Shown in pieces: positions 2,849-38,949 of a stretch of 40,136 nt of DNA. Made by a program: the position numbers and the translations under genes. The stretch comes from Kiritimatiellia bacterium (GTDB taxonomy: Bacteria > Verrucomicrobiota > Kiritimatiellia > RFP12 > UBA1067), in assembly GCA_028700415.1 (NCBI GenBank), contig JAQVSS010000008.1, positions 1 through 40,136 on the forward strand. Reading direction: 5' to 3'. Each line of letters opens with the position of its first letter. Positions within the stretch are counted from its first letter, which is position 1. The notes under the pieces were generated by a model that was not told the DNA's origin, made no database searches, and worked only from the letters and a program-made list of their open reading frames with translations.

Positions 2849-4219
2849 ATGCAGATCAATCGCAGGGGGTTTCTGAATAAGGCGGCATGGGCGGGCGGGG
2901 CGCTGGGCACACTCGCATGGCCGGGATGCGCGATGCTTTCCGGTGCCCCGGGGCGCAAGGGTAAATCGATGGTCGGGTTCCGCGCTGAACCGCTTCAGCA
3001 GGTCCGCGTGGGCGTGATCGGCGTCGGGCACCGCGGGCCGGGCGCGGTCAGACGCCTCTCGGTCATCCCGGGGGTCGAGGTCCGCGCGATCGGCGACCTG
3101 TACGAAGACCGGGTGGCGAAACAGGTGAAGAGTTTGACCGACGCGGGCAAGCCCGCGCCCGCCGCCTACTTCGGCTCTCCGGATGCGTGGCGCAAGGTCT
3201 GCGAGTCCAAGGAGATCGACCTGGTCTACATCTGCACGCCGTGGCTCTGGCACACGCCCATGGCGGTTTACGCGATGCGGTGCGGCAAACACGCTGTCAC
3301 GGAGGTTCCCTCGGCGATGACCCTGGAACAGTGCTGGCAACTGGTCGATACGGCCGAAGAGACCCAGCGCCATTTCATGATGCTGGAGAACTGCTGCTAC
3401 GGCTTCAACGAGATGTTCGCCCTCAACCTCTGCCGCAAAGGCGTGCTGGGCGAGCTGGTCCACGGCGAGGGCGCCTACATCCATGACCTCCGCGCCAGCA
3501 AGCTGCGGGAGGACAAGGAGAACGGTTACCAGGGGCAGTGGCGGCTGGAGTGGTCCAAGCAGCACACCGGAAACCCGTATCCCATGCACGGCCTCGGCCC
3601 GATCTGCCAGTACATGGACATCAACCGCGGGGACCGGTTCAACTATTTGAGTTCCGTGAGCAGTGAGCCGTTCGGCCTCAAGCTGGCCGCCGCCAAGAAA
3701 TACGGGGAGAAAAGCCCGCAGGCGAAGACGGCCTATAAGCTTGGCGACATGAACACCACGGTGATTAAAACCTATCGCGGCAAAACCATCATGGTGCAGC
3801 ACGACACCACCAGCCCGCGGCCCTACAGCCGGATCAACCTGATTTCGGGGACAAAAGGGGTGCTGGCCGATTATCCGCTGCGCGTGGCGCTGGAACCCAA
3901 GGCGCACGAGTGGATGAAGGAGCAGGAGCTGGAGGCGCTCAAGGCGAAATACGTCCACCCGCTCTGGGACAAGAACGGCGAGGCCGCCAAAAAGGCCGGC
4001 GGGCACGGCGGCATGGATTTCCTGATGGATCTCCGGCTCTGCCACTGCCTGCAGAACGGGCTGCCGCTCGACATGAACGTCTACGACGCCGCGCTCTGGT
4101 GCTCGGTGGTCGAGCTCAGCGAGCGCTCGGCGCTGCGCAACGGCGCGTCGGTCGCGGTGCCCGACTTCACGCGCGGAGGCTGGAAGACCGCCGACCCGCT
4201 CGGCATCGTCACCGTGTAG
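2849..4219 (+). CDS. Gfo/Idh/MocA family oxidoreductase, GH109 (alpha-N-acetylgalactosaminidase)-like, Tat-type signal/lipobox
   Basis: N-term INRRGFLNKAAWAGGALG...GC; Rossmann GVIGVGHRGPGAV; GEGAYIHDLR, HGLGPICQYMDINRGDR, GGHGGMD motifs typical of GH109; SD-like AAAGGGGAAAG. Confidence 0.85.
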   Translation: MQINRRGFLNKAAWAGGALGTLAWPGCAMLSGAPGRKGKSMVGFRAEPLQQVRVGVIGVGHRGPGAVRRLSVIPGVEVRAIGDLYEDRVAKQVKSLTDAGKPAPAAYFGSPDAWRKVCESKEIDLVYICTPWLWHTPMAVYAMRCGKHAVTEVPSAMTLEQCWQLVDTAEETQRHFMMLENCCYGFNEMFALNLCRKGVLGELVHGEGAYIHDLRASKLREDKENGYQGQWRLEWSKQHTGNPYPMHGLGPICQYMDINRGDRFNYLSSVSSEPFGLKLAAAKKYGEKSPQAKTAYKLGDMNTTVIKTYRGKTIMVQHDTTSPRPYSRINLISGTKGVLADYPLRVALEPKAHEWMKEQELEALKAKYVHPLWDKNGEAAKKAGGHGGMDFLMDLRLCHCLQNGLPLDMNVYDAALWCSVVELSERSALRNGASVAVPDFTRGGWKTADPLGIVTV

Positions 4220-4280
4220 CGCGGAGGGTGACGTGTTGCGGAATGACTGAGCGGGGAGACGACTTCCTGAAGGGTAAAAG

Positions 4281-6522: not shown

Positions 6523-7866
6523 ATGCAAGTGAATCGTCGTCATTTTCTGAAGGGGGCCGTTGTCGCCTCTTTGGCCGCGTCGGGCTGCCAGAGTCTGGGC
6601 AATGGAAAAACAGCGAAGGGTGCTCCGATGATGGGGTTTGCCGCTCCGGCGCTGGAAAAAGTGCGGATCGGCAATATCGGTATCGGCGCGCGCGGCAACG
6701 GGGCGGTGAGCCGTCTGCTGCGCATTCCGGGCGCGGAGATCGCGGGGCTCGCGGATCTCCACGAAGAGCGGGTCACCAAACAGCTTGCGAAGTTCGCGGG
6801 GAAGACGCCGCCGAAACACCTGTGCCACGGCTCGGAGGATGCGTGGAAGCGGCTGTGCGAGGCGCCGGACATCGACCTGATCTACATCACCTCGCCCTGG
6901 CGGTGGCATACGCCCATGGCTGTGTATGCCATGGAGTGCGGCAAGCACGCGGTCTGCGAAGTGCCGGCCGCGCTGTCGGTCGACGAGTGCTGGCAGCTGG
7001 TCACCACCAGCGAGCGGACGCGCCGCCACTGCATGATGCTGGAGAACTGCTGCTACGGGTTCAACGAGATGCTGGCGCTCAACATGTGCCGCCAGAAGGT
7101 TTTCGGCACGCTGGTGCACGGCGAGGGCGCGTACATCCATGAGCGCCTGAAAGCACTGATCGATCCCAAACATTACGACTTCGATTCGTGGCGCCGGGAG
7201 TGGACGCAGCACCATAACGGAACACCCTATCCGACGCACGGGCTGGGGCCGATCTGCAAGTGCATGGATGTCCACTGCGGCGACCGCCTGGCGCGCCTGA
7301 CCTCCATGAGCTCCGCGCAGTTCGGCCTGACCGAGTATGCCCGCGAAAAGTTCGGGCCGGACAGCAGGGAGGCCAAGATGGTGTACCGGAAGGGCGACAT
7401 GAACATCACCTCCATCCGCACGCAGCTTGGGCGCACCATCATGCTGCAGCACGACACGACCAGCCGCCGCCCCTATAGCCGGATCAACCTGATTTCGGGC
7501 ACGCGGGGCATCCTGGCGGACTACCCGCTGCGCATCGCGCTGGAGCCGAACACGCACGACTGGCTGAAGCCGGAAGAGCAGGCGAAAATCGTCGAGAAAT
7601 ACACCCACCCGCTGTGGGCCAAGAGCGGCAAGGCCGCGCTGGCCGCGGGAGGGCACGGCGGCATGGACTACCTGATGGACTTCCGCCTGATGCACTGCCT
7701 CGCGAACGGGCTGCCGCTGGACATGAGCGTCTACGACGCGGCCGCGTGGAGCAGCATCGTTGACCTCGCCGAACGGTCGATTAATCAGGGCAACAACGGC
7801 GTCGATATCCCGGACTTCACGCGCGGCGCGTGGCAGACGACAACGCCGCGTGACATCGTCATGTGA
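6523..7866 (+). CDS. Gfo/Idh/MocA family oxidoreductase, GH109-like (paralogue of 2849-4219)
   Basis: MQVNRRHFLKGAVVASLAASGC; GNIGIGARGNGAV; GEGAYIHERL, YPTHGLGPICKCMDVHCGDR, GGHGGMDYLMDFRLMHCL; clear similarity to the first copy throughout. Confidence 0.85.
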   Translation: MQVNRRHFLKGAVVASLAASGCQSLGNGKTAKGAPMMGFAAPALEKVRIGNIGIGARGNGAVSRLLRIPGAEIAGLADLHEERVTKQLAKFAGKTPPKHLCHGSEDAWKRLCEAPDIDLIYITSPWRWHTPMAVYAMECGKHAVCEVPAALSVDECWQLVTTSERTRRHCMMLENCCYGFNEMLALNMCRQKVFGTLVHGEGAYIHERLKALIDPKHYDFDSWRREWTQHHNGTPYPTHGLGPICKCMDVHCGDRLARLTSMSSAQFGLTEYAREKFGPDSREAKMVYRKGDMNITSIRTQLGRTIMLQHDTTSRRPYSRINLISGTRGILADYPLRIALEPNTHDWLKPEEQAKIVEKYTHPLWAKSGKAALAAGGHGGMDYLMDFRLMHCLANGLPLDMSVYDAAAWSSIVDLAERSINQGNNGVDIPDFTRGAWQTTTPRDIVM

Positions 7867-7937
7867 TGCGCTGAGAAAAGCAGAGCGGGTTCGAATAATG
7901 TGTGGCCGGTTCCGGCACGCCTCTCCGAGACGTCCGC

Positions 7938-8023: not shown

Positions 8024-9199
8024 TCAGGCGGGGGACGGATCGCGGCGTAGGCCGTCGCCTCCATGCAACCTGGACCGCATGTGTGAAACGCTGCAGAAGC
8101 CGCAGTCGTGGGCGATCTTTCCCGTCGCGGAGTCGCCCGCGGCGATGCGGCGCGCCGCTTCATTAAGCTGGATGCGCATCAGCTCGGTTTTGAGCGGATG
8201 CCCGAAGTGTTTGCGTGCGCGGAGCTCCAGCGTGCGCTTGGAGCAGTGTGCCGCTTCCGCAATATCCTTCAAGCGCGGACGCGCGGCGAGCCGCGAAGTC
8301 GCATAGGCGATCGCACGGGCGAGGAACGGATCGGAAATGGCCGAGGCTTCCGTCGAGCGTCGCGTCACCACCCGCGTGTGGCAGGTGCGGACGAACGGCT
8401 CGTGTTCGCGGCCCAAGAGGAGGTCGTCGAGCGCCTTCGCGAAGCGGTAGCCCGTTTCGCGCGCGTCCACGGGAATGGACGAGATCGCCGGCGATGCGGT
8501 CGTGCAGAGCAGTTCGTCGTCGTCCACGCCGAGGACGGCGAACCGTTCTGGAATCGTGAGCCCCGCATGCGCCGCGGCGGACACGATCTGTTGGGCCCGT
8601 TCGTCGTGGGCGGCGAAGACCGCGGTGCGCTCGGGAAGGCGTGCGAGCCAGCGGATCAGCCGGACCGACTCCAGCGCGAAGTCGCGTTGTTCCGCCGGCG
8701 GAGGATCGGGGTAGACCGAGACCTTGAACCCGTTTTTTCTGATCTCTGTGGCAAATCCTTTTTTCCGCGCATCGCTCCAAGCGGTCTTTTCCGGTGTTCC
8801 GATGTAGGCGAAGGACGTGTAGCCGCGCGAAAGGAAGTGTTCCGCCGCAGTGCGCCCCTCGGCTTCGTGGTCGTTGAAGAAGGTAACGACGTTCTTGGGA
8901 CGCGGCGTGCGGTCCGGACGCGAAAGGGTGGGTTCGAAGAGCACGGTCGGAAGCGCGGCCGTGAGGTACTTGCGGCGGTCCGCCGGATCAAGCACCGCGG
9001 CGATCAGTGCGGTAAATCCGCGTTCGCGGATTTTCACAGGGTTCCGCCTGGTGATGTCGCGCAGATCCAGTTGCACCTCCCACGGCGGGAACACGTTGTC
9101 GTGGACGTATTGGAGAATCCCTTCGAGATGTCGCCGGTGCGTCAGCGACACGTTCGAAAGGATGACCAGCACCTTGGGTCTCTGCTTGGCTGTTTTCAT
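8024..9199 (-). CDS. XylR-type transcriptional regulator (LacI/periplasmic-binding-like sensor plus AraC-type HTH)
   Basis: KVLVILSNVSLTHRRHLEGILQYVHD N-term; AVLGVDDDELLCTTASPAISSIPVDARETGYRFAKALDDLL sensor motif; C-term AraC HTH RPRLKDIAEAAHCSKRTLELRARKHFGHPLKTELMRIQLNEAARRI...IAHDCGFCSVSHM. Start chosen at MKTAKQRPKV (9199) rather than the ORF-track start 9226. Confidence 0.85.
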   Translation of the reverse strand: MKTAKQRPKVLVILSNVSLTHRRHLEGILQYVHDNVFPPWEVQLDLRDITRRNPVKIRERGFTALIAAVLDPADRRKYLTAALPTVLFEPTLSRPDRTPRPKNVVTFFNDHEAEGRTAAEHFLSRGYTSFAYIGTPEKTAWSDARKKGFATEIRKNGFKVSVYPDPPPAEQRDFALESVRLIRWLARLPERTAVFAAHDERAQQIVSAAAHAGLTIPERFAVLGVDDDELLCTTASPAISSIPVDARETGYRFAKALDDLLLGREHEPFVRTCHTRVVTRRSTEASAISDPFLARAIAYATSRLAARPRLKDIAEAAHCSKRTLELRARKHFGHPLKTELMRIQLNEAARRIAAGDSATGKIAHDCGFCSVSHMRSRLHGGDGLRRDPSPA

Positions 9200-9206
9200 C
9201 GCGGCC

Positions 9207-9212
9207 AGTATA
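9207..9212 (-). promoter_or_regulatory. Candidate -10 box (TATACT) of the XylR-type regulator
   Basis: Reverse-complement TATACT followed by 7 nt (GGCCGCG) and then ATG at 9199; a -35 at standard spacing would overlap the left operator repeat. Confidence 0.35.
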
Positions 9213-9223
9213 ACACACCCTGT

Positions 9224-9294
9224 CAAAAAAACGCATGGAGTTCGCCAAAAAAACGCAACGTTGGTTTTGTGTGGGCGAATAGTGATACGATCAC
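9224..9294 (+). promoter_or_regulatory. Operator/promoter copy 1: direct repeats CAAAAAAACGCA (9224-9235, 9246-9257) and palindrome GTGAT-ACG-ATCAC (9282-9294)
   Basis: Same element with identical spacing occurs at 28000-28071; lies in the divergent intergenic region between the XylR-type gene and a DUF4838 gene. Confidence 0.7.
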
Positions 9295-9503
9295 CATAAC
9301 AAAGGGGATGATTTAAGCGTGAAGGCGACTGAACGTGCGGAAATGAAGCCGCTCGCGAAGACGCTCCGTCTTCATACGCTCAAAAGGGTTTTCACGGCAA
9401 GTCGGGGCACGGGGGTGTCGGTTCTGCGGTGGAGGAAGTCCTCGCGGACAAAGGTCTCTCCGGCATCAGAAAAGCCATTCTAGAAACCATCGGAAAGAAA
9501 AAC

Positions 9504-12014
9504 ATGAAAAACAGCGTTATAGCGCTTGCCGCGATCACAACGGTTGCCGTTTCGTTTGCGGAAGCGCATTCTTTGGTTCTCAATGGGAAAGCGCGGTGCG
9601 CGGTGGTCGTGAAGGCGGATGCCGAGCCGCCGCTCAAATTCGGGGCGGCGGAACTCACGAACTATCTCGCGAGGGTGACCGGCGCCGCGCCGGAGGTCGT
9701 GAATGCGGCTGCCGCTGGGCGATACAACGTCTTCGTCGGCATGGTCTCGGACACGGAACTCCTTGCGGCGGCTGGCGTCACTGCGGCGGAGCTTAAGCGT
9801 TTCGGCGATCCGCTGTTCGACGACGGCTACGCGATCGTCGTCAAGGCGTCCGGTCTTTACGTCATCGGTGCGAACGACCGCGGCGCGTTGTACGGGTGCT
9901 ATGACGTCCTGAAGCGCTGGGCGGGCGTGAGATGGCTTGTCCCGGGCGAGGACGGTGAATACTTTACCAGGAAGGCGACGATCACGGTTCCGGAAGGAAA
10001 GATCGTCGAGAAGCCCGCCTTGTACACCCGCACCACATCGGGGTATGGCGAACCGACGCTGCTCTGGCAGGCCCGGAACCGTATGCAGAACCGCGCCTTC
10101 CGTGGCGGGCTCGAATACAACGCGAAGCGTCCCGACCTCGACGCCCGCGCCGATTTCTTCCGCGGCGTTGCCTGCCGCGGGAGCAACCACGGCGGACACA
10201 TCATGTCGGCGCTGATGTTCGGTGACGAGTGGGGAAGCACCAAGCCCGAGCGCCTTGCGACGGCAACGCGGTATTTCAAGGAACATCCGGAATGGTTCCC
10301 GCTCATCAACGGCAAACGCTTCGTGGGTTCCTATTCGCATGAGGGCGCGCCGAATCCCTGTCTCACCAATGCCGAGCTTCTTGACCGCATGGCGTCCAAC
10401 CTGATCGGGAAGATCAGCGGAAAGTATGGCGCCCAGGCGTATGTGACGCTCGGCAACAACGATACGACGGTCTGGTGCGAATGCGACCGGTGCCGCGCGA
10501 TTGACGCCCCGGAGGCGCTGGGCACAAAGGGCGAGCGTTCAGACCGGTATTGGTGGGTCATCAACGAGCTCGCGAAACGCGTCTGGAAGGTGCTTCCCGA
10601 CGCGCATCTCGGCGGCTGGGCGTATCAGGACTTCTGGTATCCGCCGCGGCACGTGAAGCCGGACAAGCGGCTCCGCGTGATGATCTCCTACAACAACCAG
10701 TGCTGGCGTCATGCGATCACCGATCCCAAATGCAACGCCAACGCCGAGCTCGAGAAAATCTACGAGGCGTGGAAGAAGCTGGAGATGCCGATTGTCGTCA
10801 ACCGCGACGAGATCGCGTGCGAGGGAAGTCCGGGGTCGGATCTCCTGCCGAGCGAGAGCGTTCTCAGGGACAACTTCCGGGCGTATGAGCAGCTCGGCTG
10901 CTCGGGAAGCAGTTTCTTCCTGCATCCGCCGTTCCCGGAATATATGTCGTGGTCGAAGAACATGAATCCGTTCTTCGGCAAGAGCTGGTGGTGGTATTCG
11001 ATGTGGCAGACCTGTTACCTCAGTGCGGAGTTCATGTGGAATCCGGGCGCCGATTACGACGCCCTGTACGAGGAGATCAACGCGCTTTACTACGGCAAGG
11101 GCTGGGAAGGCGGCCTGAAGGCGTTCCGTAAGCTTCTCGAAAAGGCGTTTTTCTCCACGCCCGGCTGCATCGGCTGGGGACAGGGGGCGCCGCTCGGCAA
11201 AGGCCTCGACCTGCCCGGCAGCGAGGAGAAGCTTAAAGCGCTGCTGGAGCAAGCCCTCGCCGCTGCGGCGACGGATCCCGATCCGCGCGCGAAGGCGCAT
11301 GTTCAACGCACGAAAGAGATCTTCGAAATGACCTGGCTCATCGAACGCAAGAAGTATCTCGAAAGCTACCGCGAGGCAAAGGCCTACCGCAGCAAAGGGA
11401 AGATCACGCTGGACGGCGTCCTCGACGAGCAGGATTGGCGGGACGCCGAGCCCATCACAGCGTTCTTTGTGCCGCCGTGGGAGACGAAGGTGACGAATAT
11501 CATCGGGCATACCGAGGTGAGGATCTGCCACGAGCGTGAGCACCTGTACATCGCCGCGGCGTGCTACGATCCGGAGATGCCGAAGCTCGTCGCGGGTGAC
11601 ACGTGCGACCGCGTGAGCGGGTACGAGAAACTCGGCGAACGCGTGGAGATCTTCTACAGCCATCCGGACATGTTCGACAAGGCCTATCACCTCATCATCA
11701 ACATGAACGGCTGCATCCTCGACGCCTTCCGGGAGAACGTCGGCAGCTTCGACACCTCCTTCACAACGGACTCGAAGTGGGCGGTGAAGAAGTATCCCGA
11801 CCGCTGGACGCTCGAACTCGCGGTGCCGGTGAAGGAGACGGGTATGCTGTGCTATCCGGGAGCGACCTGGAAGTTCAACCTCGGACGCTGTCGTGTCGTG
11901 CCGTCCGATAAGCCCGGCGAGAGGAAGACTCAGGTCTCGACCTGCGCCAATGGACACATGTATTCTCCGGGGAATTTCGTCTACTTGAAACTGCTTGGCG
12001 AGAAGGGAAAGTAG
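9504..12014 (+). CDS. DUF4838 domain protein with C-terminal CBM9-like domain (secreted)
   Basis: Signal peptide MKNSVIALAAITTVAVSFAEA; FGAAELTNYLARVTGA, GALYGCYDVLKRWAGVRWLVPGEDGEY, LGNNDTTVWCECDRCRA, MNRDEIA-type loop (VVNRDEIACEG); C-term GVLDEQDWRDAEPITAFF...WKFNLGRCRVVP CBM9-like. ATG 9504 preferred over ORF-track start 9429. Confidence 0.85.
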   Translation: MKNSVIALAAITTVAVSFAEAHSLVLNGKARCAVVVKADAEPPLKFGAAELTNYLARVTGAAPEVVNAAAAGRYNVFVGMVSDTELLAAAGVTAAELKRFGDPLFDDGYAIVVKASGLYVIGANDRGALYGCYDVLKRWAGVRWLVPGEDGEYFTRKATITVPEGKIVEKPALYTRTTSGYGEPTLLWQARNRMQNRAFRGGLEYNAKRPDLDARADFFRGVACRGSNHGGHIMSALMFGDEWGSTKPERLATATRYFKEHPEWFPLINGKRFVGSYSHEGAPNPCLTNAELLDRMASNLIGKISGKYGAQAYVTLGNNDTTVWCECDRCRAIDAPEALGTKGERSDRYWWVINELAKRVWKVLPDAHLGGWAYQDFWYPPRHVKPDKRLRVMISYNNQCWRHAITDPKCNANAELEKIYEAWKKLEMPIVVNRDEIACEGSPGSDLLPSESVLRDNFRAYEQLGCSGSSFFLHPPFPEYMSWSKNMNPFFGKSWWWYSMWQTCYLSAEFMWNPGADYDALYEEINALYYGKGWEGGLKAFRKLLEKAFFSTPGCIGWGQGAPLGKGLDLPGSEEKLKALLEQALAAAATDPDPRAKAHVQRTKEIFEMTWLIERKKYLESYREAKAYRSKGKITLDGVLDEQDWRDAEPITAFFVPPWETKVTNIIGHTEVRICHEREHLYIAAACYDPEMPKLVAGDTCDRVSGYEKLGERVEIFYSHPDMFDKAYHLIINMNGCILDAFRENVGSFDTSFTTDSKWAVKKYPDRWTLELAVPVKETGMLCYPGATWKFNLGRCRVVPSDKPGERKTQVSTCANGHMYSPGNFVYLKLLGEKGK

Positions 12015-13518: not shown

Positions 13519-16281
13519 ATGATGAAGAACATGCTGATTGCCGTCGTTGCGACGTTGCTGTTTTCGGCCGGGTGCGCCAAGGAATTCCCGCTCGTTAAGG
13601 ATGGCGTCGCCATGTGCCGCATCGTTGTCGCGAAAGACGCGTCATACGCCGAGAAATTCGGCGCGAAAGAGCTTGCGACGTATCTTGAACGCGCGTCAGG
13701 CGCGAAAGTCGGGATTGTTGACCGGACTGAGAATGATGCGGCCTATCGGATCACCATTACCGTCAAGTCCAACCCTCTGGAGGAAGACGGTTTCGTCATT
13801 GAAACCAACCAGAAGGGCACGACGATCATCGGCTCGAATCCGCGCGGCGCCCTGTACGGGTGTTATCGTCTGCTGAAAGACCGGGTGGGAGTCCGCTGGT
13901 TCATGCCGGGCGAGGATGGCGAATACGTGCCCTCGAAGAAAACGGTCACGGTCGTTGCGGGGAGCACGGCCTTCAAACCCGCCCTCCGCTGCCGCAACGT
14001 TTCGTCCACCTGGAATTCGGCATTGCTTTGGGAAGTGCGCAACGGCTTTGTCCCCAATGGCATGACCTGCTGGTATGAGGACAAGAAGACCGGTGGACTC
14101 TCCGAGCGCGGGCGGCAGTGCGAAGAGATGGGCGTGGCGCCGTCCGGGATCGGCGGACACGTGATGTCGGCGCTCATGTTCGGCGGGGGGTGGGGGAAGA
14201 CCAAGCCGGAGCGCCTTGCGACGGCGACGCGGTATTTCAAGGAGCACCCCGAATGGTTCCCGATGATCAAAGGCGAACGGTACCTCGGGACCGTATCGAA
14301 CGAGAACTCCCCGAATCCCTGTCTCTCGAATCCGGAGCTCCTCGACCACATGGCGTCCAACCTGATCGAAGCGATCAAGGGTCCCTATGGCGCGGTGGGC
14401 TACTGCACGCTCGGCAACAACGATACCACCAAATGGTGTGAATGCGAGAAATGCCGGGCGCTGGACGCGCCGGAGGCGAAGGGGACGCAGGGCGAGCGCG
14501 CCGACCGCTACTGGTGGGTCGTCAACGAGCTCGCAAAACGCGTCTGGAAGGTGCTCCCCGACGCGCATCTCGGCGGCTGGGCCTATCAGGATTTCTGGTT
14601 TCCCCCGCGGTGCGTGAAACCGGACAAACGGCTGAAGGTGACGGTATCCTTCAACTGCCAGTGCTGGCGGCATGCTGTCAACGATCCGGACTGCACGGTG
14701 AACCGCGCGTTCCGCGAGGTGTATGCCGAGTGGAAGAAGCTCGGCATGCCGATCGTGATGAACCGCGACGAAATCGCGTGTTCCGGTGCGCCCGGCAGCG
14801 ACTACCTGCCGTCCGAGCGCGTTCTCCGCGACAGCTTCCGCGCCTATCCCGAGCTCGGTTGCGCGGGATCGACGCTGTTCATCGCTGCGCCGTCTGACAC
14901 CCCGGAGTTCTGCGCTTGGGAACGCAATGACTGGCCGTTTTACGGCAAGAACCTCCGCTGGCGCGCCATGTGGCAGACCCTCTATCTCGCGGGGGAGTTG
15001 ATGTGGAATCCCGACGCGGATTTCGACGCCCTCTACGAAGAGAGCAACGCGCTCTACTACGGCAAGGCATGGGAGGGCGGGTTCCGCGATTTCAAGCGGT
15101 TGCAGACAAAGCTTTTCGAGACGACCCCGGGTTGCATCGGGCTCGGCATGGACCTAACCATGGTCGGGAGGTGCCTCGACGTGATCGGATCGGAAGATAA
15201 GCTTGGTGCGCTTATGGAGAAGGCGGTCGCTGCGGCGAAGGCCGAAGCCGATCCCAAGTGCCTCAAGCGCATCCTCACGGATAAGGAGATCTTCGAAAAG
15301 ACCTGGCTTGATTCCGCGAAACGACGCCGCGCGGAGCTCGGGGCGCTCGACGTTTTCCGCGCTGAAAGGGAAATCGAACTCGACGGGGAAGCGCGCGAGC
15401 ACGATTGGAAAGTCGCCAACGTGCGTCCGTTCTTCGGCAAGAACCGCGCCAACGTGCGCGCATGCTGGAAAGAGCGCGAGCTCAGGCTTTTCGTGGAGTG
15501 GGAGCAGGGGCCGATGACGCTTTCCTTCGCGTTCCCGGACGGTTCAGACAAGGTCGAGCGTGTTTCGGTTTCAGCTTCCGGAAAAGTATCGTCAACCGTC
15601 CCAGACGTTTGCGCGAAAATTAACGGAAATAAAGCGGAATTCGCCATTCCGCTTGCTTCTACGGGCTGGCGTTGTCTCGACGGAGGCAACTGGAAGGTCA
15701 AGGTCGGCGATCCAGATTCTCTGCATGGGTTTGTGCAGATGCGGATGATCCCCGCAAGGCAGGGTGTCTTCAAGGTTGAAAAGACCTATTCGTATTGGCG
15801 CAATGCGACGTTTGACGAAGGGTACCCGACGTCGAATATCGCGAAAGCGCAGCAGTGGGTACATTGGACAAACGAGATTGGCGTACCGGACGTGCCGCGG
15901 CCGTGGGGCGGACCTCAAGCCTGGGGTGCGACAAAATCACATGAGCCGGGCGGCTCCGATCGGTACGTGACCATTCTTCCCGAAAAGGAGTGCGTGTTCT
16001 CTCAGGGATACGTCGCTCCGGTTTCCGGTAAAATGCGGCTCACGTTCCGTGCACGCGGGAAAGGCTCGGTGCGGGTGTGGTCCGCATGTTACCACACGGA
16101 GCCCGTGACGAAACTCATGAGTGAAACGGCGAAAGGCGAAACATTCAAGTTGACCGACGCGTGGCAGACGTATTCCGCGGATTTCACGAAAACCGGCGCG
16201 CCGGACGAAAGTGTGATGGTGCGCTTTTTCGCGGTCGATGCCCCGGTCGACATCGACGATGCGTATTTCAATCCATTGTGA
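13519..16281 (+). CDS. DUF4838 domain lipoprotein with C-terminal carbohydrate-binding-like domains
   Basis: MMKNMLIAVVATLLFSAGCAK lipobox; ALYGCYRLLKDRVGVRWFMPGEDGEY; LGNNDTTKWCECEKCRALD. The ORF track extends it to 12964 but that region overlaps the GH20 gene out of frame. Confidence 0.85.
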   Translation: MMKNMLIAVVATLLFSAGCAKEFPLVKDGVAMCRIVVAKDASYAEKFGAKELATYLERASGAKVGIVDRTENDAAYRITITVKSNPLEEDGFVIETNQKGTTIIGSNPRGALYGCYRLLKDRVGVRWFMPGEDGEYVPSKKTVTVVAGSTAFKPALRCRNVSSTWNSALLWEVRNGFVPNGMTCWYEDKKTGGLSERGRQCEEMGVAPSGIGGHVMSALMFGGGWGKTKPERLATATRYFKEHPEWFPMIKGERYLGTVSNENSPNPCLSNPELLDHMASNLIEAIKGPYGAVGYCTLGNNDTTKWCECEKCRALDAPEAKGTQGERADRYWWVVNELAKRVWKVLPDAHLGGWAYQDFWFPPRCVKPDKRLKVTVSFNCQCWRHAVNDPDCTVNRAFREVYAEWKKLGMPIVMNRDEIACSGAPGSDYLPSERVLRDSFRAYPELGCAGSTLFIAAPSDTPEFCAWERNDWPFYGKNLRWRAMWQTLYLAGELMWNPDADFDALYEESNALYYGKAWEGGFRDFKRLQTKLFETTPGCIGLGMDLTMVGRCLDVIGSEDKLGALMEKAVAAAKAEADPKCLKRILTDKEIFEKTWLDSAKRRRAELGALDVFRAEREIELDGEAREHDWKVANVRPFFGKNRANVRACWKERELRLFVEWEQGPMTLSFAFPDGSDKVERVSVSASGKVSSTVPDVCAKINGNKAEFAIPLASTGWRCLDGGNWKVKVGDPDSLHGFVQMRMIPARQGVFKVEKTYSYWRNATFDEGYPTSNIAKAQQWVHWTNEIGVPDVPRPWGGPQAWGATKSHEPGGSDRYVTILPEKECVFSQGYVAPVSGKMRLTFRARGKGSVRVWSACYHTEPVTKLMSETAKGETFKLTDAWQTYSADFTKTGAPDESVMVRFFAVDAPVDIDDAYFNPL

Positions 16282-26486: not shown

Positions 26487-27941
26487 ATGCAAACAAAGAT
26501 ACTTGCCCTGATCGCGGCATTGAACTTCGGAACGCCTGGCGTCCAACCGCTGCCGCACAAGATTGATGCCTCCCGAACCAGTGCGGTCGTGCTCGATGCG
26601 ACGACGAAAGTTGAGGCGAATAACTTTGCGGACATTCTCCGTGATGAGTTCGCTCTCTGGTTCGGTATCACCCCTGTCGTCGAAGCCGCGACGCCACAGG
26701 GCGAACAGCCGGGTGCAGCGGGACAGCCGAACGCCACGATGCCTCCGTTGCCGCAAAAAGAGGAAAGCTATGCTCTTTCCGCGAAGAACGGCAAACTGCG
26801 CATCGTTGCGGCGGATGCGGCGGGTGCGCGTTACGCCGTTCGCACGCTTTTCCAGCTTTCGGTGCCGAAGCGCGGCGTTCTCAAGACCGCAGGCTTCCTC
26901 ATCCCCGAATGCGACGTCGAGGATTGTCCTACGCTCGCGTGGCGTGGCGTGCATCTCTGCTGGTTTCCGGAGCGGGGCGAGTTCGAGATGACGCGCGCCG
27001 TCTATCTTGCGGCACTTTTCAAGTTCAATCACGTCATCCTCGAAAACTGGGGGGTCTTCCGCTCTGAGCGGCATCCTTGGTACGGTTGGCCCAACGGCAC
27101 GATGACGCCGGATGCGGTTCGCCGGATCGCAGCGGTCGCGAAGCGGCTCGGGCTCACGCTCGTTCCGCAGCTCAACGTCTACGGACACGCCACGTTGTGT
27201 CGCCGCGATTCCGGAAAACATGCGGCGCTTGACCTTCATCCCGAATACGCGCCTTTGTTCGAGCCGGACAGCGGATGGAACTGGTGTCTCACGAACCCGG
27301 AAACCTTCCGCGTGCAGGCGGAACTCGCGGATGAGCTCTGGAAACTTTGCGGCAAGCCGCCATATTTCCACATTGGCTGCGACGAGGCGGAGAGGGCGAA
27401 GTGTCCCGAATGCCGCGCTGTCGGCGATGCGGCGCTCTTCAACAAGGTCGTCCGCTTCCATGCGGACCGCTTCGCCGCGCGCGGCGTGAAGATGATGATG
27501 TGGCACGACATGCTCATCAAAAAAGGTGACGAGCGCTGGAAGGGGTTCCCTGCGAACGGATCGGACGGCACCGTGAAGTTTGCGGAGCGACTGCCGAAGA
27601 ACGTCATCGTCTGCGACTGGTATTACGACAAGGCGCAGGAGCGGTATCCGACGATTGAACATTTTCAGTCCCTCGGACTCGATGTCATAACCTGCGCGTG
27701 GAAGGATTCGGCGGGCACGCTCGCGCAAGGCAAGTACGCGCGCGAGCACAAGCTTTTCGGATTCCTCGGCACCACCTGGGCGTCCCCGATGCGCGACATC
27801 GGCGTCGCCGCGGCCGCGGCGTGGGGATCATCGGTTTCGGCAAGCGCTTCGCTTCAAGACAACTGGCGCAAGTGCGGACAGCTCGCCGGGATGAAGGACT
27901 ATAACGAAGCCGGATTCATGGGAAAGCAGGTTGAAGAATGA
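26487..27941 (+). CDS. GH20-like beta-N-acetylhexosaminidase
   Basis: SD AAGGAGG; VEANNFADILRDEFALWFG... N-terminal domain; TLAWRGVHLCWFPERGEF, LTLVPQLNVYGHATLCRRDSG, FHIGCDEAERAKCPECR. Confidence 0.75.
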   Translation: MQTKILALIAALNFGTPGVQPLPHKIDASRTSAVVLDATTKVEANNFADILRDEFALWFGITPVVEAATPQGEQPGAAGQPNATMPPLPQKEESYALSAKNGKLRIVAADAAGARYAVRTLFQLSVPKRGVLKTAGFLIPECDVEDCPTLAWRGVHLCWFPERGEFEMTRAVYLAALFKFNHVILENWGVFRSERHPWYGWPNGTMTPDAVRRIAAVAKRLGLTLVPQLNVYGHATLCRRDSGKHAALDLHPEYAPLFEPDSGWNWCLTNPETFRVQAELADELWKLCGKPPYFHIGCDEAERAKCPECRAVGDAALFNKVVRFHADRFAARGVKMMMWHDMLIKKGDERWKGFPANGSDGTVKFAERLPKNVIVCDWYYDKAQERYPTIEHFQSLGLDVITCAWKDSAGTLAQGKYAREHKLFGFLGTTWASPMRDIGVAAAAAWGSSVSASASLQDNWRKCGQLAGMKDYNEAGFMGKQVEE

Positions 27942-28054
27942 AAAGCAGATGGATGGCCTTTCTGGGCGTGTGTTCGCTTCCGCTTTTTGCGGAAGAAATC
28001 AAAAAAACGCATAGATCTTGCCAAAAAAACGCAACGGCCTTTTTTGCGTGTTGA
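27938..28054 (+). pseudogene. Truncated signal-peptide ORF interrupted by operator copy 2
   Basis: ATGA overlap with GH20 stop; MKSRWMAFLGVCSLPLFAEEI then reads into the operator (KKTHRSCQKNATAFFAC*). Confidence 0.6.
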
Positions 28055-28071
28055 ATCGTGATATTATCACG
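28000..28071 (+). promoter_or_regulatory. Operator/promoter copy 2: CAAAAAAACGCA (28000-28011, 28022-28033) and palindrome CGTGAT-ATT-ATCACG (28057-28071)
   Basis: Same repeat sequence, 22-bp repeat spacing and 36-bp repeat-to-palindrome spacing as 9224-9294. Confidence 0.7.
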
Positions 28072-28126: not shown

Positions 28127-30601
28127 ATGGAAAAAATCGTCACAGCGATCATCGCCATCACAACAGGTGCCGTTTCATTTGCACAAGAGCATGCTTTGAT
28201 TCTCGATGGAAAAGCGCGTTGCGCGGTGGTCGTGAAGGCGGATGCCGAACCGCCGCTCAAATTCGGCGCCGCGGAACTCACGAACTATCTCGCGAAGGTT
28301 ACCGGCGCCGCGCCGAAGATCGTGAATGCGGCAAGCGCGGGGAGATACAACATTTTCGTCGGCATGGTCTCGGACACGGAATTCCTTGAGGCGGCTGGCG
28401 TCACCGCGGCGGAACTGAAGCGTTTCGACGATCCGCTGTTCGCCGACGGGTTCGTCATCGAGGCGAGTTCGAAGGGCATTTCGATCACCGGCGGTTCGCC
28501 GCGCGGTGCCCTTTTCGGGTGCTATTGGTTCTTGCGGAAGTACGCGGGAATGCGCTGGCTCGTTCCGGGAGAGGACGGCGAGTATTGCGTCCATACGGGC
28601 AGGACCATTACGGTTCCGGTCGGGACGGTGGTTCAGAATCCGTATCAGCCGATCCGCAGGTTCGGCGGTCTCCCGTCAGACGAGCTCCATCTCTGGTGCG
28701 CCCGCAACGGCATGCAGTCCTCGACGCGCCAGGCGGATTTCGCCGGCAAGGACGAGCGGGGGCTGAAACGCAAGGCGCGGCTTGAGGACCTCGCCGTTTG
28801 CGGCGTCGGCCGCGGCGGACATGCCCTCACGGAATACATGCTCGGCTGGGGGGGAAAGGGCGAGACCGCAAAGCAGGTCGCGGAAAGACTGTATGCGGTT
28901 CATCCGGAATATTTTCCGATGATCGGCGGGAAACGCAAGCTCACCTGGGGGCCGTACGATCCGAATCCGTGTATTTCCAATCCGGAGCTTCTGGACCGCA
29001 TGGCGGCACAACTTCTGGACAGCGCCGGAGCCGAACACGGAAGCGACGAAAACCTGATTATCGGAAACAACGACACGTCGATCTGGTGCGAATGCGAAAA
29101 GTGTCGCGCGCTTGACAATCCGGCGGTGGCCGGAACGCGCGGCGCGCGCAGCGACCGCTTCTGGCACATGGTGAACGAACTCGCGAAGCGTGTCTGGCGG
29201 ACACGCCCTGACGTGAAGCTCGGTGCGTGGGCGTATCAGGACTTCTGGTATCCGCCGACTTTAGTCAAGATCGATCCGCGCCTCCGCGTCCTCATCAGCT
29301 TCAACAACCAGTGCTGGCGCCACGCCGTCGATGATCCGAATTGTGCGGTGAACGGCGAATACCGGAAAATATTTGGACTCTGGAAGGCGACAGGACTTCA
29401 GGTTTACAACCGCGACGAGATCGCGGACGAGGGCTCGCCCGGGCGCTACGTCCCCGCAGAATATGTCCTGTACCGGAACATGCTCGCGAATCCTTCCCTC
29501 GGCTGTTCGGGCGACAGTTTTTTCCTCTATTCGCCGTTCCCTGAATATCTCAAGTGGGCGGCGAAGTGGCCTCCCTATTACGGCAAGAACTACTGGTGGC
29601 GCGCGATGTGGCAGACGGCGTGGATCACGTCGCAGATCATGTGGGACGAGAAACAGGATTTCGCCGCGCTCTACGAAGAGTGCAATGCGCTCTATTACGG
29701 CGCGGCATGGAAAGGCGGCATGCGGGATTTCCGGCGGTACCTGACCGAATGCTTTACCAATACGGTCGGTTGCATCGGCTACGGATCCGGCGCACCGATC
29801 GGGAAGTGCCTCGACTTCCCCGGCTCCGAGGAGAAACTGAAGATGCTTCTCGACAAGGCGATCGTGTCCGCGAAAGCCGCGGGAGATGAACGCGCCCTGA
29901 GGCATCTTGAGACAGACAAGGAGATTTTCAACCTCACCTGGATCAAAGACCGCAAGCAGTATCTTGAGAACTACAAGGCATGCGACGTTTTCAGGCGGAA
30001 GGGCGAAATGACCATCGACGGCGTCCTCGACGAGGCGGACTGGAAGGGCGCGCAAAAGATCGGCGACTTCAAGCACAAGTACGAGACCTTGCCGCCGGAA
30101 CCGGCGAAAGAGCCGACGGAAGCGAAAGTCACGTACGATCTCGACCATCTTTACATCGGCGTCACCGTGTTCGAACCGGAGATGGCGAACCGAATCGCCG
30201 GCAAACCGTCGGAAGTCGATCGCGACAGCGGCTGGAACAAGATCGGCGACCATATCGAGCTCTTCTACCAGTTCCCGGACATGTGCGAGAAGGCGTTCCA
30301 CCTTGCGATCAATTCCGAAGGCGCGATCATCGACGGCATCCAGAAGTCCGCCTCCGACCGGGACATCACCTTCCAGACCAAGGCGAAATACGCGATCAGG
30401 AAAGGGGCCGACCGCTGGACGCTGGAGATCGCCATCCCTTGCGACGAGATGGGCTCGAAATGCATGGAGGGAATGAACTGGCGGCTCAATGTCGCGCGCG
30501 TGCGGGTCGTTTCCACGCAGAAAAGGAAGGGCTGGACCACTTCCGCCTGCAACGGCCACTTCCACGGCGTTTCGAATTTTATCCACCTGAAACTGAAATA
30601 A
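28127..30601 (+). CDS. DUF4838 domain protein with C-terminal CBM9-like domain (close paralogue of 9504-12014)
   Basis: KARCAVVVKADAEPPLKFGAAELTNYLAKVTGAAPKIVNAASAGRYNIFVGMVSDTE nearly identical to 9504 paralogue; IGNNDTSIWCECEKCRALD; GVLDEADWKGAQKI...NWRLNVARVRVV. Confidence 0.85.
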   Translation: MEKIVTAIIAITTGAVSFAQEHALILDGKARCAVVVKADAEPPLKFGAAELTNYLAKVTGAAPKIVNAASAGRYNIFVGMVSDTEFLEAAGVTAAELKRFDDPLFADGFVIEASSKGISITGGSPRGALFGCYWFLRKYAGMRWLVPGEDGEYCVHTGRTITVPVGTVVQNPYQPIRRFGGLPSDELHLWCARNGMQSSTRQADFAGKDERGLKRKARLEDLAVCGVGRGGHALTEYMLGWGGKGETAKQVAERLYAVHPEYFPMIGGKRKLTWGPYDPNPCISNPELLDRMAAQLLDSAGAEHGSDENLIIGNNDTSIWCECEKCRALDNPAVAGTRGARSDRFWHMVNELAKRVWRTRPDVKLGAWAYQDFWYPPTLVKIDPRLRVLISFNNQCWRHAVDDPNCAVNGEYRKIFGLWKATGLQVYNRDEIADEGSPGRYVPAEYVLYRNMLANPSLGCSGDSFFLYSPFPEYLKWAAKWPPYYGKNYWWRAMWQTAWITSQIMWDEKQDFAALYEECNALYYGAAWKGGMRDFRRYLTECFTNTVGCIGYGSGAPIGKCLDFPGSEEKLKMLLDKAIVSAKAAGDERALRHLETDKEIFNLTWIKDRKQYLENYKACDVFRRKGEMTIDGVLDEADWKGAQKIGDFKHKYETLPPEPAKEPTEAKVTYDLDHLYIGVTVFEPEMANRIAGKPSEVDRDSGWNKIGDHIELFYQFPDMCEKAFHLAINSEGAIIDGIQKSASDRDITFQTKAKYAIRKGADRWTLEIAIPCDEMGSKCMEGMNWRLNVARVRVVSTQKRKGWTTSACNGHFHGVSNFIHLKLK

Positions 30602-36700: not shown

Positions 36701-38905
36701 ATGATCAACATGAAAAACGGAACCATTTGCGCCATGTTGGCTATTGCCGCCGTGGCATGTGCCGAACGTCCCTACGCTTTCCGGGAAGAGCTCGAGACCG
36801 TACACGAAAAGGGCGTGCGCGACAAATCAGTCGGCTGTAGCGCAGATGCGTTCGCATTCACCGACGGAGCGGCGATCTCTGTGCCGCAAGACAGCGCGTT
36901 TCTCCTGCGCGTCGCCGAAGATTTCACCGATTATCTGTTTGTTTCGCAGAACGTCCGGGCATGTGTGACTACGGATGATGCCGCCCCTGCGCTCGCGGTA
37001 TCGCTCGATCCTGCTCTCGGTGAGCGGACGTATGAGGTGCGTGTCGGCGCGAAAAACATTTCGGTGTTTGCCGCGGATGAACGCGCCGCCGCGCAGGCGC
37101 TCTATCATCTTGAGGATCTGATGAACTTGAGCCGAACCCCGTTTCTGAGGGCCGGTTCGGAAAGACGCACGTCGAAGTATTCGCCGCGGATGATCCATTC
37201 CGGCTGGGGCATCGACACGTTTCCGGAGAACTATCTCAGGCGTGCTGCGCACCATGGCTTTGATGCGATCCTCATTTTCGTGAAGGAGGCGGGACGCACC
37301 GCTCGCGGGTGGGACGATATCAATGCGATCATCCGCACGGCGAAAAAGTGGGGAATTGACTCATATCTCTACAGCTATGTGCATGCGCCGGTCCATCCAG
37401 ATGATCCCGCGGCCCCGCAGGTGTTCCGGAATTCCTTCGGCGCGATTGCGCGTGCGTATCCCGGGGCGAAGGGGTACATCTTTGTCGGCGAGAGCTGCCA
37501 CTTTCCATCCAAGGATCCGCGCACCAATGGCAAGGCCTGGCCGGACAAGCCGGAGGAAGGGGATACGCGGCCCTATCCGGGGAGTTATCCGTGCAGTGAT
37601 TATCCCGATTGGCTCAAGGGTGTGAAGGCGGCGATCGACCGCGAGAATCCGGACGCGGACATTGTTTTCTGGACGTACAATTTCGGCAACAAACCTGAGG
37701 ATGTAAGGCTCGAGCTTCTACGGAAGATGCCGAAGGATGTGTCGCTGCTGATCACTTTCGAGATGTTTGAGGACTCGGTGAAGTCCAATGGCATGCGTTC
37801 GCGGGTGTGGGACTATTCCATTTCTGATCCTGGCCCCGGTGGCTATTACCTCTCCGAGGCGGTCGCGTGCGGAAAACTCGGGCTCAAGCATTACACCATG
37901 GCCAATACCGCGGGACTGACCTGGGATCTCGGAACCGTGCCGTACCTGCCCTGTCCGTACCAGTGGAAGAAGCGTTGGGACAAGCTTGAGGTTTCACACC
38001 GTGAGCACGGCCTTCGCGGGCTGATGGAGTCTCATCACTACGGCTGGTATCCGAGCGTGATCAGCGAACTTGCCAAGGAGGCCTTCACCGAGGGCGGACT
38101 CCCGTTCGAAGAACACATCCGAAGAATCGCGGCGCGCGATTTTGGCGAACAGCACGTTGATGCCGCGCTTGCCGCGTGGCGGGGGCTCTCGGAGGCGATC
38201 GCGGATTCATTCCCGTGTCCCCAGAATTTAGCGGGTCCCTATCGGATCGGCCCCGCTTTTCCATTCAACTTCGGCGGCAAGCGCATCGAGTACGAGGATG
38301 TGCCGTTCCCCCAAGCGTCCGCGTACGTCAAGAGTTACTGCTGGACCTATTTCAACTACATGGAGGATTTTGCCAAAAGCCGTTTCCCTCCCGTCATCAA
38401 AACGGATTGGGAGCCGGATCAGATGAAACTCGAGATCGACCTCTTGACAGGTATGGTGCAGAAGTCCGTCGCCGCTGCTGACGCGTTTGAGGCGATGATC
38501 CCGGCGCTGGACGCGCGTCGGGCCAAAAAGGCCCGCAAGGCGTCGGATCTCGCGCGGTATATGGCGCACAACTGGACGACCGTATTGCATCTAAAAAAAG
38601 GGGCGCTCGCGACCATGGCGAAGAACAATGCCGCGATTCGGGAAATCGCGAAGGAGGAATACGCCAACAAACGGGCGACGCTGAGACTCGTTGATCGCGA
38701 TTCCCGGCTTGGCTGGGAGCCGTCAATGGATTACATGGGGGGCCGCAAGGTTATTGAATGGTCGATGCGGATGATGGAGAAGCTTTACGGTTCTCTCGGC
38801 ACCACCTCGGCGTCCCCGATGCGCGACATCGGCGCCGCCACGCCCGTGGCGTTGGAATCAACGGTTTCGGCCACCGCTTCGCTTCAGGGCAACTGGCGCA
38901 AGTGA
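36701..38905 (+). CDS. Alpha-glucuronidase/GH20-superfamily-like secreted glycoside hydrolase; C-terminal ~40 aa appear replaced by a GH20-derived tail
   Basis: Signal peptide; FLLRVAEDFTDYLFVSQNVRACV...ADERAAAQALYHLEDLMNLSRTPFL zincin-like N-domain; barrel segment PRMIHSGWGIDTFPENYLRRAAHHGFDAILIFVKEAGRT. C-term GSLGTTSASPMRDIG...SATASLQGNWRK matches GH20 26487-27941. Confidence 0.65.
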   Translation: MINMKNGTICAMLAIAAVACAERPYAFREELETVHEKGVRDKSVGCSADAFAFTDGAAISVPQDSAFLLRVAEDFTDYLFVSQNVRACVTTDDAAPALAVSLDPALGERTYEVRVGAKNISVFAADERAAAQALYHLEDLMNLSRTPFLRAGSERRTSKYSPRMIHSGWGIDTFPENYLRRAAHHGFDAILIFVKEAGRTARGWDDINAIIRTAKKWGIDSYLYSYVHAPVHPDDPAAPQVFRNSFGAIARAYPGAKGYIFVGESCHFPSKDPRTNGKAWPDKPEEGDTRPYPGSYPCSDYPDWLKGVKAAIDRENPDADIVFWTYNFGNKPEDVRLELLRKMPKDVSLLITFEMFEDSVKSNGMRSRVWDYSISDPGPGGYYLSEAVACGKLGLKHYTMANTAGLTWDLGTVPYLPCPYQWKKRWDKLEVSHREHGLRGLMESHHYGWYPSVISELAKEAFTEGGLPFEEHIRRIAARDFGEQHVDAALAAWRGLSEAIADSFPCPQNLAGPYRIGPAFPFNFGGKRIEYEDVPFPQASAYVKSYCWTYFNYMEDFAKSRFPPVIKTDWEPDQMKLEIDLLTGMVQKSVAAADAFEAMIPALDARRAKKARKASDLARYMAHNWTTVLHLKKGALATMAKNNAAIREIAKEEYANKRATLRLVDRDSRLGWEPSMDYMGGRKVIEWSMRMMEKLYGSLGTTSASPMRDIGAATPVALESTVSATASLQGNWRK
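38781..38904 (+). repeat. Degenerate copy of the 3' part of the GH20 gene (27751-27874)
   Basis: Ungapped hand alignment, 108/124 identical, same reading frame. Confidence 0.75.
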
Positions 38906-38949
38906 CGAGATTGGCTAGAAATGCATGGAGGGGATGAACGGGCGGCTCA
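38902..38949 (+). repeat. Degenerate copy of a DUF4838 gene segment (30441-30488)
   Basis: Ungapped hand alignment, 43/48 identical, immediately abutting the GH20 remnant. Confidence 0.7.

Follow-up and report, generated by a model that had tools for sequence, protein, structure and literature searches.

Results

A pair of A7CGCA direct repeats upstream of two paralogous DUF4838 genes in a Kiritimatiellia bacterium (GCA_028700415.1, contig JAQVSS010000008.1) is, with high likelihood, the operator of the XylR-type regulator encoded divergently from the first of these genes. We propose that the sugar-bound regulator activates this gene, that it controls its own synthesis, and that it serves the second gene in trans. 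The features on which this proposal draws are listed below; throughout, "the window" refers to the whole 40,136 nt stretch of DNA that was analysed.

8024..9199, minus strand: XylR-type transcriptional regulator, 391 aa (Peripla_BP_3 and HTH_18)
9200..9215, minus strand: candidate -10 region (TGTTATACT) of the regulator's own promoter (from sequence and the TGn pattern in homologues)
9224..9235, plus strand: putative distal half-site CAAAAAAACGCA, copy 1 (from sequence and conservation contrast)
9246..9257, plus strand: putative proximal half-site CAAAAAAACGCA, copy 1 (22 bp from the distal one, a period enriched upstream of homologues)
9282..9294, plus strand: "palindrome" GTGATACGATCAC, with a candidate extended -10, TG-A-TACGAT, at 9283-9291, for the DUF4838 promoter (from sequence and the TGn pattern)
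9504..12014, plus strand: predicted target 1, a DUF4838 protein with a GH67 N-terminal-like domain (PF16126, 2.9e-30; PF03648, 2.2e-08)
28000..28011, plus strand: putative distal half-site, copy 2 (from sequence and conservation contrast)
28022..28033, plus strand: putative proximal half-site, copy 2 (from sequence and conservation contrast)
28058..28070, plus strand: "palindrome" GTGATATTATCAC, with a candidate extended -10, TG-A-TATTAT, at 28059-28067, for the second DUF4838 promoter (from sequence and the TGn pattern)
28127..30601, plus strand: predicted target 2, a DUF4838/GH67N-like paralogue that shares 53% aa identity with target 1

A XylR-type regulator beside a rare pair of direct repeats

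The regulator joins a LacI/GalR-like sugar-binding N-terminus (Pfam Peripla_BP_3, 3.5e-36) to a C-terminal AraC-type helix-turn-helix (HTH_18, 7.9e-09), which is the domain layout of XylR-type AraC/LacI hybrids, and its best solved relative is E. coli XylR (4fe4, 2.5e-29, with residues 108-375 aligned). The tandem direct-repeat operator expected of this type is present in the sequence at 22 bp, with binding as a prediction. At a threshold of 1e-40, homologues are present in 52 of 115 same-family genomes, and the source assembly has ten matches at E <= 1e-40, this regulator included; MAGs of near relatives are labelled Kiritimatiellae, Kiritimatiellia or Verrucomicrobia. The scanned open frames of the window yielded no second regulator.

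The 12-mer CAAAAAAACGCA occurs as direct repeats with a period of 22 bp at 9224/9246 and again, 18.8 kb away, at 28000/28022, and the window has exact 12-mer direct repeats at this period in these two places only; even one such repeat was found in just 2 of 200 first-order Markov windows. These coordinates, repeats and spacings had been given by an earlier, sequence-only reading of the DNA and are exact for both copies, as is the position of the palindrome GTGATNNNATCAC (9282 and 28058), 36 bp past the start of the second repeat. A genome-wide search confines the pair to the two window sites, with no third copy at <=3 mismatches in the 4.91-Mb assembly (548 contigs), which is about 87% complete, so that further sites could be absent from it. 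The single 12-mer has five occurrences in the assembly, four of them in the operator copies and the fifth (C389:450) inside apparent coding sequence, and a search of 60 relatives for the full A7CGCA pair gave no complete match, only matches with 2 mismatches.

Target 1 heads a codirectional gene run. Five regions read upstream of other DUF4838 paralogues in the genome have at best 8/10 matches at 20-23 bp, and the search for orthologous DUF4838 promoters in the family yielded a single weak homologue (28%) outside the source genome, without a strong upstream repeat. That the assembly has no further sites supports the candidate two-promoter DUF4838 regulon that had been put forward from the sequence, and we predict a small regulon consisting of autoregulation and the two DUF4838 promoters.

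Repeats with a 22 bp period are enriched upstream of regulator homologues

We surveyed direct repeats at periods of 13 to 40 in the 137 bp that precede the start codons of 109 non-redundant same-family homologues. Exact 8-mer repeats have a period of 22 in 14 of the 109, compared with 0-3 at each other period, and repeats with 9/10 matches number 18 at this period and 0-4 at the others; a distal control stretch has 0 repeats at 22 bp. For 47 further homologues from a different collection, many of them from Planctomycetota, the excess falls on periods of 21 bp, with 6 cases, and 22 bp, with 3. In most of the repeat-bearing closest relatives the repeat starts 50-60 bp before the regulator ATG; that of the source regulator is likewise at -58. 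The E. coli xylA-xylF region served as a positive control and gave AAAAATC...AAAAATC at 21 bp upstream of xylF, in a longer stretch where a few other periods have similar match counts. Because of the 22-bp enrichment in homologues and the 21-bp period at xylF, the direct repeats are very probably the operator of the regulator at 8024-9199. The enrichment bears out the suggestion of an AraC/XylR-type tandem direct-repeat operator and, together with the XylR assignment, the suggestion that the XylR-type protein encoded next to the site is its likely binding partner.

Half-sites vary among regulators, with TTTTGCGCA, AAAATCGG, TATGATATT and others represented, and several other regulators of the source assembly have TTTGCGCA-type repeats upstream. 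A strong repeat (>=9/10) close to the start of the regulator is present in only 34 of 158 non-redundant homologues, and the relatives listed with a repeat include neither L013 nor L014, the two from the family search that are 52% identical. The half-sites in the window point toward the target gene, whereas the AAAAATCGG of the nearest relatives points toward the regulator. Operator similarity correlates with similarity of the helix-turn-helix (r = 0.56) no more strongly than with that of the N-terminal domain (0.58), and recognition is therefore not separable from descent. One relative, L247, has a nearly identical operator twice, at G098:C323 and at C54:7404; the first precedes an apparent long, repeat-rich protein gene and adjoins a partial divergent frame that resembles the start of the same regulator.

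The repeats are conserved between two duplicated copies

The two operator copies are homologous DNA. Their alignment starts at 9222/27998, directly before the distal repeat, and continues into the DUF4838 genes; just upstream of the operator, 13 of 42 bp are identical. Between the copies the repeats are identical at 24/24 positions and the spacers at 18/34 (Fisher test, p = 4e-5), the palindrome arms are identical at 10/10 (p = 0.007 against the spacers), and 121 of the 221 fourfold-degenerate sites of the DUF4838 pair are identical (~55%). Given these contrasts, the conservation footprint between the copies is real, and selection most likely preserved the repeats. The description of this pattern as a phylogenetic footprint thus holds for the conservation contrast, which is significant, but not for independence: the copies are paralogues that arose by duplication, and therefore count as one lineage of evidence.

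The distance from operator to gene is longer by about 165 bp at copy 1, where 9335-9498 has no counterpart at copy 2, and the predicted leaders are therefore very different in length, at about 205 nt for copy 1 and about 53 nt for copy 2. At copy 2, a 38-aa frame (27938-28054) whose start, MKSRWMAFLGVCSLPLFAEE, resembles a signal peptide, overlaps the end of a GH20-like gene and runs into the operator; it is probably the start of a gene severed where the duplicated segment joined. Elsewhere in the window, 3172-4226 is duplicated at 6828-7875 and 10190-11338 at 14151-15308, and 38780-38949 combines segments that resemble 27750-27874 and 30443-30488, a mosaic that suggests repeated shuffling of the locus. 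Beside the sugar-enzyme genes, 1000-2028 encodes a protein with T5SS/PEP-CTERM-associated repeats (NCBIfam TIGR04393, 8.4e-28).

The palindrome resembles an extended -10

The palindrome contains TGATACGAT within GTGATACGATCAC at copy 1 and TGATATTAT within GTGATATTATCAC at copy 2. Both have TGn directly before TAnnnT, as in an extended -10, and the bases that vary between them are those of the tolerant middle of the hexamer. Among homologue upstream regions in which the -10 is clear, 30 of 52 have TGn before it, and the next commonest dinucleotide accounts for 4. Exact palindromes are very rare, with three sites in the assembly, two of them here and the third apparently inside coding sequence; the exact search of the assembly found no site outside the window in an evident promoter. 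Since TGn is so frequent in homologues and there are no wider palindrome sites, the palindrome is better read as an extended -10 core promoter than as the separate operator element of the sequence-only reading, with the conserved CAC unexplained. We infer that transcription starts near 9298 and 28074. A scan for the sigma-70 consensus detected no promoter at copy 1, where no -10 is paired with a -35, and at copy 2 only a single promoter, on the opposite strand; Rfam has no match in the window.

The right-hand CAC (9292-9294) goes beyond what a -10 explains, and the two copies of so rare a palindrome share all ten bases of its arms. These observations would suit a true composite, in which the repeats bind the XylR-type regulator and GTGATNNNATCAC is the operator of a second dimeric regulator, probably a repressor that covers the -10. 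We consider such an arrangement unlikely, given that the left arm and centre match the extended -10 arrangement of the homologues, that the sole other exact palindrome apparently lies within coding sequence, that no cognate regulator is apparent, and that the palindrome copies are of common descent.

Discussion

By analogy with XylR, we propose that a dimer of the regulator would bind with one AraC-type helix-turn-helix unit per half-site, so that both units contact the same face of the DNA at a distance of two helical turns. A sugar on the LacI-like domain would then lead to activation of a weak, -35-poor promoter with the extended -10 TGATACGAT or TGATATTAT. The operator also sits immediately upstream of the -10 of the regulator gene, and the regulator therefore probably governs its own synthesis as well. 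A duplication brought a copy of the DUF4838 gene, along with its operator and promoter, to 28 kb, where the regulator may serve the second gene in trans; with the operator copied alongside the enzyme gene, one regulator probably switches both DUF4838 promoters.

We infer binding, a sugar ligand, and activation rather than repression. At the regulator's own promoter the site is close to the -10, where binding could repress, and the regulator might instead be a repressor at one or both promoters that is released by its sugar. This is improbable: at the DUF4838 promoters, 28 bp separate the end of the proximal half-site from the -10, a location upstream of the -35 position and in keeping with activation, and the XylR proteins of E. 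coli and Vibrio are reported as activators. Lastly, although the operator copies are duplicated DNA and the assembly has ten regulator matches, it is very unlikely that the repeats bind another XylR-type paralogue, or nothing, and owe their similarity to residual homology, because about 55% identity would be expected in the repeats and 24/24 is observed (p about 6e-7), several other regulators have TTTGCGCA-type repeats upstream instead, and the site adjoins the regulator at 8024-9199 in a position close to that seen in near relatives.

The operator is of the ordinary XylR kind, with no new mechanism shown. E. coli XylR (4fe4, 4fe7; xylA/xylF operators) likewise combines a LacI-like sensor with an AraC helix-turn-helix, and its tandem A-rich direct repeats likewise lie upstream of the target promoter at a spacing of two helical turns. 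Indeed, two XylR sites three bases apart have been described upstream of E. coli xylF, where XylR is an activator (PMC7567609). The systems differ in period (22 bp here, with the half-site CAAAAAAACGCA, and 21 bp in E. coli), in targets (DUF4838 enzymes are predicted here, whereas E. coli XylR controls xylose isomerase and a transporter), and in the extended -10, which is unlike the E. coli system. The Vibrio XylRA/xul locus also has a XylR-type regulator and an AT-rich direct-repeat motif, supported by EMSA, at several promoters of one polysaccharide locus; unlike the locus described here, it is xylose-responsive, has its motif at five promoters and belongs to Gammaproteobacteria (PMC12125979). 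Local regulators of the AraC family in Caldicellulosiruptor likewise have tandem-repeat sites upstream of promoters and are read as activators of adjacent sugar-use genes, but the C. bescii set has unrelated target genes and includes two-component regulators (PMC8579813).

It is possible, though on balance somewhat doubtful, that Kiritimatiellota and Planctomycetota have many XylR-type regulators whose tandem half-sites are individual to each protein and have a lineage-typical spacing of 22 or 21 bp, the site having spread to a second enzyme gene by promoter duplication in the present case. If this is true, the pairing of regulator and operator would be readable directly from genomes. The present reading links a specific regulator to specific DUF4838 promoters of an uncultured lineage, and it offers a simple rule, that tandem half-sites at 21-23 bp beside XylR-type genes mark operators, by which operators of sugar loci may be predicted in related genomes.
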